From Synechococcus sp. BSA11S (GTDB taxonomy: Bacteria; Cyanobacteriota; Cyanobacteriia; PCC-6307; Cyanobiaceae), in assembly GCF_014224355.1 (NCBI RefSeq), contig NZ_VNWP01000001.1:248001-312000 (forward strand): a stretch of DNA of 64,000 nt. Reading direction: 5' to 3'. Position numbers and translations under genes: made by a program. Each line of letters starts with the position of its first letter. Position 1 is the stretch's first letter. The notes under the pieces are model-generated. The model did not search any database, was not told the DNA's origin, and was given only the letters and a program-made list of their open reading frames with translations. This document shows, one piece after another, positions 28,980 to 48,070 of the stretch.

Positions 28980-30505
<1,526 letters not shown>

Positions 30506-31118: not shown

Positions 31119-31832
31119 TCAGGCGGCGACAGCCTCGGTGCTGCCGGCCCGCTGGCGACGGGTGAGGAAGCCGAAGAGCACCTTTCCGATGGCCGCCACC
31201 AGGTTGCCTTCCAGTTCCTGGAACATCCTCATGTTGCAGTGGAAGGCCTCGTTGGCCTCGGCCACGATGCGATCAGCGGTGGCCTGGTCGATCGGCAGTG
31301 CGTCGAGGGTGGCGCGGTAGGTGGTCTTGAACGCCTTCTCGTCGGCGATGGCGTCGAACTCGTAGAAGCGCAGGCCGTCGTGCTCGCTCAGGTTCATCGC
31401 CTTCTGGGCGATGTTCTTGAGAATGATGCCGCCGGAGAGATCGCCGATGTAGCGGGTGTAGTGATGGCCCACCAGCAGCTCTGGGGCGTCCTTGGCCACC
31501 TGATGCAGACGGGCCACATAGGACTGAGCTCCAGGTGTGGCCTGGATCTTCTGGCGCCAGTCGCCTCCGTAGTAAAAGGTGAGATCCTGCTCAAGGGCCT
31601 CGCGGCGGTTGAGCTCGGCGAAGGCGATCGGCCCGACCACTGGATGAGAGGTGAGCTTGCCGATCGCCTCTTCCATGGCGCTGTACACATACCAGAGGTC
31701 GGCCACCAGGGTGCGGTAGCTGGCCTTGTCCACCACCCCCTTGAGGAAGCAGCTCACAAAACCGGTGTTCTCGGCCATCGTGTGGGCTTTTTTGGTTCCC
31801 TCCCTCAATTGGGAAGCAAGTGCGACAGGCAT
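31119..31832 (-). CDS. ho1: Heme oxygenase (biliverdin-producing)
   Basis: Opens heme to biliverdin IX-alpha, CO and iron, the first step to all bilins. The 237-residue protein has LREGTKKAHTMAENTGFVSCFLKG with the proximal His, HHYTRYIGDLSGG with the distal helix glycines, and FYEFDAI. The acidic/basic residues that bind ferredoxin are in the usual places. It is 4 bases upstream of the cpcS-like gene and starts the operon that ends with pebB. The upstream region 31833-31987 probably holds the promoter. Confidence 0.95.
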   Translation of the reverse strand: MPVALASQLREGTKKAHTMAENTGFVSCFLKGVVDKASYRTLVADLWYVYSAMEEAIGKLTSHPVVGPIAFAELNRREALEQDLTFYYGGDWRQKIQATPGAQSYVARLHQVAKDAPELLVGHHYTRYIGDLSGGIILKNIAQKAMNLSEHDGLRFYEFDAIADEKAFKTTYRATLDALPIDQATADRIVAEANEAFHCNMRMFQELEGNLVAAIGKVLFGFLTRRQRAGSTEAVAA

Positions 31833-32203: not shown

Positions 32204-33176
<973 letters not shown>

Positions 33177-33184
33177 TCGGCTGA

Positions 33185-33724
<540 letters not shown>

Positions 33725-42799: not shown

Positions 42800-44014
42800 T
42801 CAAAGCAGTCTGATGGCGTGGAGAGGTCCATTGCCGCTCAATAATTCCATCAGGATTGCCAAGAATCCCAGCATAGCAAGCCGCCCGTTCCACACTTCCG
42901 ATCTGTTGTTCCAGCCCCAGGCCCACCTGTCCTGTGGATACAGCTTCACCTTGGTGGGAAGTGTGGCTGCCTGGTCAAGGTTTATCTCCGGTCCGGCCAG
43001 GGCTTGCTGTACCAGATCGGCCAAGCCGTGGATGAAGGAGGGGGTGGTGTCGAGGGCCGGTACACGGCGGAAGTTAAGGATGCCGACCTGTGTGGCGATC
43101 TCCCGGTATTCGATGTCGATTTCCTCGAGAGTCTCGATGTGCTCGCTCACGAAGCTGATAGGCACCACCACCAGATCCTTCACGCCTGCTTCACCAAGCT
43201 CATGTAGGGCTTCATCGGTGTATGGCTTCAGCCACTCCACTGGGCCCACACGGCTCTGGTAGGCCAGGGTGTAGGGGTTGGAGTGGCCCAGGTCGCCGGC
43301 CAGTCTTTCCATGATCAGGCGGGCGCAGGTCTCGATCTCGTTCTGATAGGGGTCGCCCGCCTCTTCCACGTAGCTCTTGGGCACGCCATGGGCGCTGAAG
43401 AACACATGGGCGCTGCCGGGCTCGGGACAGGCCTGAATCTCCCGAGAGATCAGTTCGGCCATGGCCCCTAGGTAGCCGGGGTCGTCGTAGTAACCGCGGA
43501 TGCAGTGAATCGGAAGCTTTGCGAAGCCTGGATCGGCCAGGCGCAGGCGCTGCAGTTCTCGAAAGCTGGATCCGCTTGTGCTGATCGAAAAGTGGGGGTA
43601 GAGAGGCAACACCACCACCTGATCTATCCCGTCCGCTTTGATATCGGCCACGGCCGACTCGGTGAATGGATGCCAATAACGCATGGCTACGTAGCTGGTG
43701 GCCTCGATGCCTCGCCCCCGCAGTTCGCTCTGCAGTTCGCGGGCCTGCTGCTCGGTGATGCGGCGCAGGGGGGACCCGCCGCCGATGGAGCGGTAAGCCT
43801 CCTTGGACTTGTTGCTGCGCAGGCTGCTGATCAGCCAAGCGAGGGGCTTCTGCAACACCGGGGTCGGCAGTCGGATGATCTCCGGATCGGAGAACAGGTT
43901 GTAGAGGAACGGGGCGACATCCTCGATCCGCTCAGGGCCTCCGAGGTTCAGGAGAACCACGCCGACCTTGACATGGTCTGTGGGAGGGTGATGGTCCATA
44001 CATGCAGGCGGCAA
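42800..44014 (-). CDS. hemH: Ferrochelatase with chlorophyll-binding-like C-terminal helix
   Basis: Inserts iron into protoporphyrin IX to make protoheme. The 404-residue protein has [48 protein letters not shown] with the active-site His, [20 protein letters not shown] and [18 protein letters not shown]. After about residue 360 comes [29 protein letters not shown], the single-helix chlorophyll a/b-binding motif common in cyanobacterial ferrochelatases. It lies in the phycobilisome region, next to genes that need heme for bilins. The ATG at 43999 is an alternative start. Confidence 0.95.
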
Positions 44015-44017
44015 TGT

Positions 44018-44710
44018 TTAGGTCATCAGGCTGTCGCGGGTCGTACGGCGAGTGAGCGGGTTCCAACAGTCCAGCTCCTGGAACGGCCGTCCGATCAAGG
44101 TCTCTCGAATAGAGTCCAGCCCTGATGAGCTCGTGAAGTCGGAACCACGGATCGATTCGGCTGCGGAAAGGTCAGCATCGGTCAGATTCGCCCCGCGAAA
44201 ATCGGCATAATCCAGCTGGCAACCTGAGAAACGCACCCCTTCGCAAAGAGCACCGCGCAGCACAGCATGACGCAGATCTGCTCCTGCCAGGCGCACTCCT
44301 CTGAGGCAAGCACCGCTGAGATCTGCACCGCTGAGGTATGCACCCATCAATAGGGAGCCGCTCAGGTCCATGCCGGAAAGATCGGCGCTATTGAGAAAGT
44401 GGCCGCTTAACTTGGCCTTGGGTCCTACTGCACCGGAACCTCGAAACTCGTAGTTGTCTGGCCAGATGGTCATGCCGTCATATCGAGCCAGTCGCAGATC
44501 GGCTCCATCGAGTGTGCATCTACTCAGATTCGTTCCCCTTAAATCGACACGACAAAGGCGTGCTTCTGTGAGATCAGTAGCACCGAGATCCAGCTCACGC
44601 CAATCAGCTCCTCTAGCGTCGAAAGCACGACCGATGGCCTGGTTGGAAGGGAGTTTGGATTCCGGAGGAAGCCAACCAGGCACTAAGGAGGATTGCGATG
44701 CGCTATGCAC
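44018..44710 (-). CDS. Pentapeptide-repeat protein
   Basis: A 230-residue protein with about 15 A(D/N)LxX repeats: FDARGADWRELDLGATDLTEARLCRVDLRGTNLSR, LSGADLSGACLRGVRLAGADLRHAVLRGALCEG, LDYADFRGANLTDADLSAAES. Such repeats form a right-handed quadrilateral beta-helix. No membrane segment is seen. It ends 3 bases before hemH and is likely cotranscribed. Similar proteins are known in marine Synechococcus phycobilisome regions, with no assigned role. Confidence 0.85.
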   Translation of the reverse strand: MHSASQSSLVPGWLPPESKLPSNQAIGRAFDARGADWRELDLGATDLTEARLCRVDLRGTNLSRCTLDGADLRLARYDGMTIWPDNYEFRGSGAVGPKAKLSGHFLNSADLSGMDLSGSLLMGAYLSGADLSGACLRGVRLAGADLRHAVLRGALCEGVRFSGCQLDYADFRGANLTDADLSAAESIRGSDFTSSSGLDSIRETLIGRPFQELDCWNPLTRRTTRDSLMT

Positions 44711-44829: not shown

Positions 44830-45429
44830 TCACAGAACAGGGGCTCCTACCTCTCCAGCTTGGCAGGAGAACTCCCTGATCATCTCCTCCAGATGGCGAA
44901 TGACCATTTCAAGGCGCCAGGTATCCTTGCTTCCGCCGAGCGATCCGTAGTGAATAGATGAGACTTCACGCAGGTAGCATAAAGCCTTCGCCATGCTGTC
45001 GATAGGAACGGCCAGTTCTCGATAAAGTTCACGCAAGCCGCTGACTCCTGGTGGGTGCGTGAACGATTGCCGATCAGCGGCCACGGCATAGATGGCAATG
45101 CGGAGAAAATGCCAGCAGTCGCGCCAGCATGCCTCGGAGCGACTTTCCGGGAAAAGTGATCCACCGGGCTTGATCAGGCCAGGATCCTCTGCCACCAATC
45201 TTCTCTTGACATCTGCTACTACTTGTGAGGCGTTCTCTTGAAGCAGGCGTAGGGGTTCGGAATCAATGGAGGAGAACTGGCAAATCTCATCGAATTCCTT
45301 TGTGGTCAAAGGCCTGCTCTCATCATCAGCATGCCGGAAAATTGCACGAACATTCGCCGGGAGGGACTTGTCATGAGCAAGACCAAGGATGCGAGCCCCT
45401 GCAATCATCTCAGGCAAGTTTTTCGCCAT
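44830..45429 (-). CDS. Phycobiliprotein-like (AplA-like) protein
   Basis: A 199-residue protein that aligns by eye with the phycobiliprotein fold. Chromophore-region helix: LIKPGG, SRSEACWRDCWHFLRIAIYAVAADR; Cys101 sits where C82/84 is in phycobiliproteins, and another Cys is at 105. The stretch GVSGLRELYRELAVPIDSMAKAL matches the [12 protein letters not shown] helix of beta subunits. It lacks the other bilin Cys. Such divergent members (AplA of Fremyella) can bind bilin. The ATG at 45429 is preferred, as the longer frame overlaps the gene at 45458. Confidence 0.75.
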   Translation of the reverse strand: MAKNLPEMIAGARILGLAHDKSLPANVRAIFRHADDESRPLTTKEFDEICQFSSIDSEPLRLLQENASQVVADVKRRLVAEDPGLIKPGGSLFPESRSEACWRDCWHFLRIAIYAVAADRQSFTHPPGVSGLRELYRELAVPIDSMAKALCYLREVSSIHYGSLGGSKDTWRLEMVIRHLEEMIREFSCQAGEVGAPVL

Positions 45430-45457
45430 CACTTCTGCAGCATCGATGATTTTGCCT

Positions 45458-45922
45458 TCATGAGGAGATCGAGGAGAATCTGGCCATTGCCTCACGTCCC
45501 AACCCTGCAGAGACCACAGGAGTTGCGACTAGATGTCCATGTCGTTCATTATACAAGGCCCAGATGGCTCCATTTGCTATGCCAGGACAATGACGGACGA
45601 TCGCATCTGCCAAGTTAGGTCGCAGCCCGAGCGCATGAAAGAGCTGCCAACACTCATCCTCACTGCTAACATGAACATGGCGGATTGCGGATCCGACAAC
45701 CCAGGTCAATGTCGTATCCTCAATGGGTCCGCTTGAACTGGAGCAGGCAAGTAGAAGATTGTTGTCTGTATTGTCTGCCTGAGAGTAAGTGGCTCCCCAT
45801 AGATCAATGGTCTCGGGGAGAAGGTTTAGGCGTAGATCAGTTTGCCCTTCGTCAACGAGAATGTCATGCTGACCATATGCTGACTTCAGCATGGTGAGAA
45901 ATCTTTGAAAAGAATCACTCAT
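45458..45922 (-). CDS. Conserved hypothetical protein of the phycobilisome region
   Basis: A 154-residue soluble protein: MSDSFQRFLTMLKSAYGQHDILVDEGQTDLRLNLLPETIDLWGATYSQADN, then TLTWVVGSAIRHVHVSSEDECWQLFHALGLRPNLADAIVRHCPG. It seems to be an alpha/beta protein without a known motif. It sits 28 bases upstream of the AplA-like gene on the same strand, suggesting a shared transcript and perhaps a shared task. I do not recognise the family. Confidence 0.6.
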   Translation of the reverse strand: MSDSFQRFLTMLKSAYGQHDILVDEGQTDLRLNLLPETIDLWGATYSQADNTDNNLLLACSSSSGPIEDTTLTWVVGSAIRHVHVSSEDECWQLFHALGLRPNLADAIVRHCPGIANGAIWALYNERHGHLVATPVVSAGLGREAMARFSSISS

Positions 45923-46003
45923 GACAATCTCTCCCTGTGGTGTGCTCCCCCTTCCCCTTAGCGTTTTTTCCAGGAACTCGGACCATTCCCAACCTCTTGA
46001 ACA

Positions 46004-46780
46004 CTAGCCCCGTCCAGCAGTGCTGAGCATGGAGATGGCGATCCAAAGCACCAGTCCAGTGATTACGAAGCCCCCCGCAGCAACGGTGTTCAACCAGAGC
46101 TTGCGGGCCCATGGAGCAGGGGCATTGGCCAGCCAGGCAGGCCGTTGACCCATGGTGCTGTTCTGCCACAGCATCGATTGTGCGGGAGTTCGCTTGGCGA
46201 TGCTGTCCCGCCAGTAGGCCTGATAGCGGGGCGCTTGCTGGTTGAAGGGCATCGTGCCCACCGCCTGTCCAGGCAGAACACGGGACCGCTGGAAGGGTAC
46301 TGTATCGTAGCCAAAGTTTTGCATGTACTCCTCAGACTCCAGGAGTGTATCCACCAGGGAAGCCAGGCCACCCTGGGCGATCAGAATCGAATAGGCGATG
46401 CGTTCCCGCTCGCCGTAGACGGGCCTTCCAAGCACCCGGCCGATGGTCTGCTCGACCATCCGATAGTTGCTGTTGCAGCGGTAGAAGTCGTCGCGGAACT
46501 TCTGCGACAACAGCAGGCCACGCACGAAGTCCCTCATGGTGATCTGACCCTCGCGCAACTGGGATTCGAGCATGGGATCGCGGTCCACCTTGAAGGCGTG
46601 GAAGTAGATCTGTCGATAGGCCTGCTCGATTTGGATATCCAGGTCACGTCGATCGCAGGTCCCGTTGATGCTGCGCGCAGCCGACTGAGACTGCCGACTG
46701 CCTTCCTCGCCGGCCAGGGTGAAGCTGGCGACCCGCGCATTCATGGTGAGCGGCTTAACAGAAAGCAAAGGCAGTGCCAT
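46004..46780 (-). CDS. cpcG: Rod-core linker CpcG with hydrophobic C-terminal helix (CpcL-like)
   Basis: A 258-residue rod-core linker. The PBS_linker domain (about 45-180) begins LDIQIEQAYRQIYFHAFKVDRDPMLESQL and has DFYRCNSNYRMVEQTIGRVLGRPVYGERERIAYS and YDTVPFQRSRVLPGQAVGTMPFNQQAPRY. The C-terminal ~35 residues contain an uninterrupted hydrophobic stretch (WLNTVAAGGFVITGLVLWIA and on to ML), enough to span the membrane. CpcL proteins with this build hold rods next to photosystem I instead of the core. The family call is firm; the CpcL call is from the tail alone. Confidence 0.85.
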   Translation of the reverse strand: MALPLLSVKPLTMNARVASFTLAGEEGSRQSQSAARSINGTCDRRDLDIQIEQAYRQIYFHAFKVDRDPMLESQLREGQITMRDFVRGLLLSQKFRDDFYRCNSNYRMVEQTIGRVLGRPVYGERERIAYSILIAQGGLASLVDTLLESEEYMQNFGYDTVPFQRSRVLPGQAVGTMPFNQQAPRYQAYWRDSIAKRTPAQSMLWQNSTMGQRPAWLANAPAPWARKLWLNTVAAGGFVITGLVLWIAISMLSTAGRG

Positions 46781-46943
46781 GGTGACTTGATAGCTTGAAC
46801 GAAATCATCCCCTGGATCAATGGGCCTGTGCGGGAGGGAGGAAGGGATCCACACCAATCGTCACTTCCCCTGCTCGCGGATCGAGGTTCCTTGAACAGAG
46901 GGTAAAAGCTGTGGCTGTGAAGTGATCCCAATTGGCTAGCCCA

Positions 46944-47014: not shown

Positions 47015-47506
47015 TCAGACAAGCGCGTTGATGGCATAGTCGATGTAGTTGTTCGCCTCGGTTCCAGGCTCTCCACTCATGCCGTGGTTGGCCTTGATGT
47101 AGCTCAGGGCCTCCACGTACCAGGAGGGAGAAAGTTCAAAGGTACGGTTGATCTCATCGATGCCAGCGATAAGGTATTCGTCCATTGGACCGGTGCCACC
47201 AGCCACAAGACAGTAGGTGACCATGCGCAGGTAGTAACCGATATCACGGGCGCACTTGTCCTTCCCGCGTTGGTCGGCAGCGTACGTGGGCCCCTGCATC
47301 TGGGTGGTGTAGGGGAACTTGCTGTAGACGGCTTGCGCGGCGCCATTCACAAGGGTGTCTGCTTTGGCTGTCAATCCTTTAGCAGCCTCAAGAGCCGACT
47401 TGGCTCGAGTGAAGCGTCCGAAGGCGGCATTGATTTCGGTGTTGCTGAGAAAGCGGCCTTGGGAGTCGGCAGCTGCGACAGCCTCGGTCAGCGGAGTCTT
47501 CGACAT
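47015..47506 (-). CDS. cpcA: Phycocyanin alpha subunit
   Basis: A 163-residue antenna subunit. It starts [21 protein letters not shown], has the single bilin Cys at position 85 ([14 protein letters not shown]) and ends IDYAINALV. One bilin is expected, attached by CpcE/CpcF. The upstream cpcB is 45 bases away. No clear ribosome-binding site is seen before the ATG. The lack of a second Cys indicates C-phycocyanin or R-PC-type alpha with one chromophore. Confidence 0.97.
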
Positions 47507-47551: not shown

Positions 47552-48070
47552 TCAGGCCACGGCGGCGGCGGCGCGATCAAAGTAGGTGCCGATTTCGGAG
47601 ATCAAATTGCTGCAATCGCCCGATGTGATGCCGCCGCGATCGTTGACGATGGCAATGGAGGCATCCTTCATTTTGCGTACACCTTCGGCGACAGAAGCGC
47701 CAGGAGTGCCAAGGGCAAGATAGGTTTCCCGCAGGCCGTTGAGGCAACGATCTTCGAGAATGGATGTGTCTCCGGTGAAAATGGAATACGTGATGTAGCG
47801 GAGGATGATCTCCATGTCACGTAGGCATGCGGCCATCCTGCGGCTTGTGTAAGCGTTGCCCCCGGGTGCGATCAGCGCCGGTTGCTGAGCGAACAGATCG
47901 CGGGCTGCATTGGCAACGATCATGGAAGCGTTGGAGGTGATCCGGTTGACGGCATCCATCCGCTTGTTGCTGTCTGCGACGACCGACGCCAAGGCATCGA
48001 TCTGGGCAGAGCTGAGGAATTCGCCGCGGGCATCAGCCTGAGCAACGACCTTGGTGAAGGCGTCGAACAT
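47552..48070 (-). CDS. cpcB: Phycocyanin beta subunit
   Basis: A 172-residue subunit starting [20 protein letters not shown]. Bilin Cys are at 82 ([14 protein letters not shown]) and 153 ([12 protein letters not shown]), the standard positions. The ATG at 48070 is preceded by AGGAG 12 bases upstream, a good ribosome-binding site. The longer in-frame reading upstream does not resemble the family. Cys153 is the target of CpcT; Cys82 is the target of an S-type lyase. First gene of the cpcBA operon. Confidence 0.97.

Follow-up and report, generated by a model that had tools for sequence, protein, structure and literature searches.

AplA of Synechococcus sp. BSA11S, a phycobiliprotein relative associated with phycoerythrin and carrying a second cysteine near its candidate bilin site

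What does a relative of the antenna phycobiliproteins do when it is itself probably not an antenna chain? The question is posed by aplA, a gene in the phycobilisome rod cluster within the window, the stretch of 64,000 nucleotides from Synechococcus sp. BSA11S analysed here (Table 1). Its product is a picocyanobacterial AplA, a known but little-studied antenna-protein relative. We lean slightly towards a reading in which AplA, a protein of the phycobiliprotein fold, would carry one covalently bound bilin at the candidate site Cys101 and act outside the phycobilisome as a phycoerythrin accessory that holds or hands on phycoerythrobilin, or reports its supply, within the same-strand unk4-aplA-unk5 gene set of the rod cluster. 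Function is what we infer here, from bilin binding and the type of bilin to the place outside the phycobilisome and a part in phycoerythrin assembly over light sensing. The association with phycoerythrin and an apparently moved second cysteine are the parts worth following, and with them the vague question of what AplA might be a photoreceptor for becomes testable, through phycoerythrin assembly, single cysteines and Unk4. New here are the conserved AplA residues, the co-occurrence with CpeB, C105, an Unk4 model without a clear match, and the occurrence of Unk4 without AplA.

Table 1 Features of the rod cluster in the window, in window positions.
Feature	Position	Strand	Description
cpeB	32616..33176	plus	Phycoerythrin beta; G000:C1:280616-281170 over cut-off
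cpeA	33230..33724	plus	Phycoerythrin alpha; by position beside cpeB and PF00502 match
hemH	42800..44014	minus	Ferrochelatase
unk5	44018..44710	minus	Pentapeptide-repeat protein, 230 aa; gene name after PMC2246261
aplA	44830..45429	minus	199 aa; candidate bilin-site residues C101/R103/D104, apparent AplA signature W102 and F108, second Cys C105
unk4	45458..45922	minus	154 aa; C60 and C112 conserved; without a Pfam family; modelled as a compact alpha/beta protein
cpcG-type rod-core linker gene	46004..46780	minus	Top NCBIfam match CpcG1, 170 bits, under the 430-bit cut-off
cpcA	47015..47506	minus	Phycocyanin alpha; over equivalog cut-off
cpcB	47552..48070	minus	Phycocyanin beta; over equivalog cut-off; ATG at 48070

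The aplA gene and its neighbourhood

By its sequence, the product of aplA is a member of the phycobiliprotein family, with a match to Pfam PF00502 (E 9.7e-31, 107.3 bits, cut-off 22.2) that lies far beyond chance. The genome as a whole has twelve PF00502 matches, this one included, and two of them fall within a single 1103-residue frame. An earlier note on this DNA had described here a protein with Cys101 and the motif LRELYRELAVP, coupled to a 154-residue protein and near hemH, and all of these are present, the motif at residues 132-142. The frame, of 199 residues on the minus strand, opens with an ATG at 45429 and ends with a stop at 44830, and an alternative longer reading with a GTG start (44830-45495) encodes 221 aa. 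Allophycocyanin alpha (ApcA) is the top-scoring NCBIfam model, at 63.1 bits against a cut-off of 270 bits, and the ApcA, ApcB, CpcA, CpcB, CpeA and CpeB models all stay below their NCBIfam cut-offs; AplA differs from ApcA in this and in belonging to a separate clade (see below). The closest solved relatives are allophycocyanin and phycocyanin chains. In the best matches AplA residues 28-34 align with chain positions 6-12, so the protein has an N-terminal extension of about 22-24 aa. Such an extension relative to allophycocyanin is one of the features by which AplA is recognized, and Montgomery et al., who reportedly named AplA in 2004, are said to have given it as 28 aa.

The unk4-aplA-unk5, cpcG and hemH gene set is already in print without an assigned function. 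According to Six et al. 2007 (PMC2246261), all PEII-containing marine Synechococcus have aplA upstream of cpcGII; unk4 lies upstream of aplA, and the pentapeptide-repeat gene unk5 is generally found downstream of cpcGII. The window contains the same genes as this unk4-aplA-cpcGII-unk5 set but arranges them differently, with cpcG before unk4, unk5 directly after aplA, and hemH after unk5, the unk5-hemH order being shared by 11 of 41 related loci (L039-L041, L043-L050). Type IIB clusters are described by Larsson et al. 2014 (PMC4139726) as having the order cpcA-unk4, hemH downstream of pebAB and hmuO inside, and by Sanchez-Baracaldo et al. 2019 (PMC6363710) as having cpcBA upstream of aplA. The window resembles them in having cpcBA at the unk4 end, hemH and a heme oxygenase (assigned by eye) inside, and phycoerythrin genes in the cluster. 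It differs in that the cpcG-type gene intervenes between cpcA and unk4, which are in cpcA-unk4 order in L042, L068, L071, L074 and L077, and in that hemH follows unk5 rather than pebAB (28980-30490). The earlier note had spoken of a small unit lacking a described function. This is half right: the set has no known function, but unk4, aplA, cpcGII and unk5 were catalogued in marine Synechococcus in 2007 (PMC2246261), and type IIB clusters that enclose hemH and hmuO followed in 2014 (PMC4139726). AplA is also named in figure legends by Callieri et al. 2019 (PMC6776005) and in a reservoir-genome paper (PMC5478717).

Some minor observations concern these neighbours. The putative heme oxygenase (31119-31832), placed in the same cluster as in type IIB, has no NCBIfam match at E 0.001. 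The C-terminal stretch of the ferrochelatase gives a weak match to a chlorophyll a/b-binding family (PF00504, E 0.0011, 19.9 bits, cut-off 22.3). The start of cpcB was picked by eye, and the longest ATG frame reaches 48283.

Fold, phylogeny and bilin-site residues

The structure was predicted with AlphaFold for an Unk4-AplA reading frame that occurs naturally in one metagenome-assembled genome (MAG; L043); the AplA part of this frame shares 47-49% identity with window AplA and stands in for it. The read-through model has a mean pLDDT of 90.0 and a pTM of 0.66. All 50 Foldseek and all 50 VIA-align matches shown for it are phycobiliprotein or phycobilisome entries. Foldseek reached E 1.4e-6 and a TM-score of 0.67 by target length, with an rmsd that is high, mostly 8 to 9 A; VIA-align gave Z up to 16.1, with 148 residues at 3.8 A and, for another entry, 131 residues at 1.9 A. 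The predicted fold of this ortholog is that of a phycobiliprotein, and the deviating structure that the earlier note had named as grounds for rejection did not appear.

The phylogeny proposed in the same note likewise gave AplA a place of its own. In a maximum-likelihood tree all 78 AplA proteins (54 from the family of the window and 24 from elsewhere in the class) group in a single clade, supported at 100/100, to which none of the eight other phycobiliproteins included from this genome belongs. AplA sits on a long separate branch, and the window protein clusters with AplA-like proteins of other cyanobacteria. Columns 105 and 111 were taken out before the tree was built, its bootstrap had yet to settle completely, and a number of long branches drew flags; the outgroup comprised eight of the nine other single-domain phycobiliproteins in the genome, C41:78948 being left out. 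Omitted from the 78 were G119, where the aplA frame is split in two, and the duplicates L080 (a copy of L037) and L190/L191 (copies of L100/L104). Kinship of window AplA with Fremyella AplA would run through the outside-family members of the clade, the tree being built without the Fremyella sequence.

Fold and tree both bear on whether AplA might be built into the phycobilisome as a minor structural component, for instance near the rod-core junction given its cpcG neighbour. The fold of the L043 model agrees with this, as does a cpcG-type gene beside aplA or one gene away in 36 of 41 picocyanobacterial loci. We nevertheless consider such a role improbable, given the long separate branch, the N-terminal extension, the lack of a phycobiliprotein partner gene adjoining aplA, and the lack of a gene labelled cpcG at the 24 loci outside the family. 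Fremyella AplA is reportedly also absent from phycobilisomes, a finding ascribed to Montgomery et al. in 2004.

AplA is further recognized by a chromophore cysteine with a neighbouring arginine and aspartate, found here as C101, R103 and D104. C101 and D104 are present in 78/78 AplA proteins and R103 in 77/78. The sole exception (L085, from G171) has a histidine at position 103 and keeps C101, D104 and C105. In addition, W102 and F108 occur in 78/78 AplA and in 0/8 of the other phycobiliproteins of this genome, from which, at the level of aligned residues, they set AplA apart. The conservation of C101, R103 and D104 speaks against a chromophore-free scaffold that has lost bilin binding. The overall divergence of AplA, with 21-32% identity between the L043 model and the chains listed in the structural searches, would suit such a scaffold, but the bilin-site residues are retained even though 18 of the 19 other rows in alignment A1 are just 33-48% identical to window AplA, and we give this explanation little credence. 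In fold, N-terminal extension and chromophore residues the window protein is like the known AplA of Fremyella, also annotated in marine Synechococcus; the position of the gene, upstream of cpcGII in marine strains, is listed as a further likeness. The view of an AplA-like protein that possibly binds a bilin and is not an antenna chain is thus backed by profile, fold, chromophore residues and phylogeny, with bilin binding predicted from the residues.

Association with phycoerythrin

The phycoerythrin part of the preferred reading comes from the distribution of AplA across genomes. Among 103 genomes of the class outside the family, AplA was found in 24, CpeB in 21 and both in 20, that is, AplA is present in 20 of the 21 CpeB genomes and in 4 of the 82 without CpeB (Fisher p 2e-16, uncorrected for relatedness). 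The 20 genomes with both are spread over nine family codes. All 24 AplA scored 120 bits or more, the next match reaching 99.7, and CpeB was counted over its cut-off; because neither search scores more than 11 candidates in a genome, a few cases may have been missed. The exceptions are G236, G414, G416 and G429, with AplA and no CpeB over the cut-off, and G291, with CpeB and no AplA. Relatives of peb, cpe, lyase or phycoerythrin-linker genes occur within about 8 kb of aplA at 16 of the 24 outside loci. These genes were labelled by their best match in the window, and one labelled as a linker or lyase may be a phycocyanin relative. At the other eight no such neighbour was seen in the fetched stretch, which in some cases was ended by the contig.

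Within the family, 52 of the 55 AplA genomes carry CpeB at E 1e-94 or better, while G096, G119 and G183 have none over the cut-off. AplA was counted here at E 1.5e-20 or better (next match 6e-18), a threshold at which more divergent AplA could be missed. The reverse does not hold: of the 123 family genomes whose CpeB passes the cut-off, 71 lack AplA at this threshold, and strain WH7805, according to Six et al. (PMC2246261), has a phycoerythrin and lacks aplA. Phycoerythrin therefore does not require AplA. AplA is mostly found in phycoerythrin-making cyanobacteria, an association that is strong and not strict. In the literature searched, with most subscription papers and the naming paper outside its reach, we found neither an earlier statement of this co-occurrence beyond PEII strains nor a demonstrated function for AplA.

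The second cysteine and Unk4

The earlier note had pointed to one candidate bilin cysteine. C101 stands, but C105 had been left out, a cysteine four residues and one helical turn further on that occurs in 42/42 intact AplA encoded next to unk4, none of which has a cysteine at position 111 (0/42). For the 36 remaining AplA (12 in the family, 24 outside) the pattern is reversed, with Cys111 in 33/36 and Cys105 in 1/36; among the outside-family proteins alone, C111 is present in 23/24 and C105 absent in 23/24. This separates the unk4-linked clade from most other AplA, a comparison that did not include the Fremyella sequence. The 41 loci fetched by the AplA motif itself were kept out of these counts, and the 42 unk4-linked proteins are not independent because related sequences share descent. 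The fewest changes on the AplA tree are three for position 105 and two for position 111. The contrast between the two groups may go back to roughly one gain and one loss early in the unk4-linked clade. Residues aligning with C101 and C105 fall inside a single helix (260-282) of the L043 model.

A cysteine in this place would suit a photoactive site, and with it the possibility that AplA is a bilin photosensor, in which light would change the bilin, AplA would signal to the phycoerythrin genes, and Unk4 would serve as its output or reset partner. The conserved bilin-site residues fit this, and Six et al. (PMC2246261) cite Fremyella AplA as a photosensor or photoreceptor unlinked to the phycobilisome. 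A sensor nevertheless seems rather unlikely: PF00502 is the only Pfam family over its cut-off in the aplA frame, with no signalling domain, and the labelled neighbours are phycobilisome, lyase and bilin-synthesis genes (the labelling did not cover regulators). The phycoerythrin accessory remains our preferred reading. As a long shot, the second cysteine of the unk4-linked clade might have moved from 111 to 105 and, together with C60 and C112 of Unk4, form a thiol-gated bilin site. This would be either a second, reversible bilin link, making AplA a two-cysteine photosensor, or a hand-over site where Unk4 puts phycoerythrobilin on or takes it off. Should C105 be a second bilin-contacting residue, this would be a two-cysteine bilin site in a phycobiliprotein fold.

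A strict dependence of C105 on Unk4 was not upheld: G236, the lone AplA with C105 that is not adjacent to unk4, carries both C105 and C111 and has no Unk4 match. Co-evolution of C105 with C60 of Unk4 was a mere hint. G083 and G084 have leucine at AplA position 105 and serine at Unk4 position 60, but they represent one lineage, and C60 is kept in nine AplA-less Unk4 proteins examined. The tree places their AplA within the unk4-linked clade, but the AU test (p 0.11, long branches flagged) does not reject one clade made up of unk4-linked AplA, and a reversal of C105 in this lineage is therefore not shown. At the loci of these two genomes (L190, L191) cpeBA is doubled, aplA lies amid phycoerythrin genes, and a diverged Unk4 is 7-9 kb away. 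A DNA pattern for ACWRDC was located 20 times, in 17 of 292 genomes. No AplA match was obtained at six of these loci (L136, L139, L149, L151, L152 and L154), and the pattern alone is therefore not specific.

Unk4 gave a confident alpha/beta model (pLDDT 89.4, pTM 0.87). Among 54 aligned rows, which include the window protein twice, 52 have C60 and 52 have C112, G083 and G084 being the only two with Ser60. A Foldseek search of the model against PDB and BFVD returned nothing at E 0.001 or better, and VIA-align gave no clear match to a solved structure (best Z 4.0 for a designed protein, CcmS at Z 2.4). The Unk4 profile found nothing below E 0.34 among PDB sequences, and Pfam searches with 31 members hit ten families, one member each (best E 0.0067), which we judged to be chance. 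Lack of a structural match does not show a new fold.

The coupling of AplA to this protein, proposed in the earlier note, holds as adjacency, unk4 lying directly upstream of aplA in 41/41 motif-fetched loci (in the same frame once), but Unk4 is not specific to AplA. Among 201 family genomes Unk4 occurs in 66, AplA in 55 and both in 45, with Unk4 counted at E 0.001 and four of the 66 weak, at E above 1e-10 (G020, G029, G055, G058). Unk4 as an AplA-only partner was rejected on the 21 of 66 Unk4 genomes that lack AplA at the threshold used, all of which carry CpeB at E 1e-92 or better and most of which appear to be of Prochlorococcus size. In five small genomes of this kind, unk4 and cpeB share one stretch in L182, L183, L184 and L189, and cpeB is on another contig in L181. 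Unk4 matches are absent in 10 of the 55 family AplA genomes, and a search of the 24 outside-family AplA genomes gave 0 matches. The read-through of unk4 into aplA was considered as proof of contact and set aside: it is found in one MAG (L015, the same as L043), whose close relatives L014 and L016 have a TGA at this point, and it may be an assembly error. No contact between Unk4 and AplA is claimed, because both domains are confident but the overall pTM is 0.66, with no interface score.

Both genes look to be under purifying selection, judging from substitution rates against Synechococcus sp. RedBA-s (L041; aplA dS 0.082, dN 0.031; unk4 dS 0.48, dN 0.057) and 1G10 (L039; aplA dS 0.059, dN 0.011; unk4 dS 0.49, dN 0.058). 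At synonymous sites unk4 diverges several-fold more (dS 0.48-0.49) than aplA (0.06-0.08), although the genes are 28 bases apart. Over about 45400-46900 of the window, identity to L039, L040 and L041 is 83-92% across cpcG-unk4 and about 94-100% in the flanks, as if a recombination boundary lay between unk4 and aplA. A second dip, to 83-86% against the same three loci, is found near 43000-42700.
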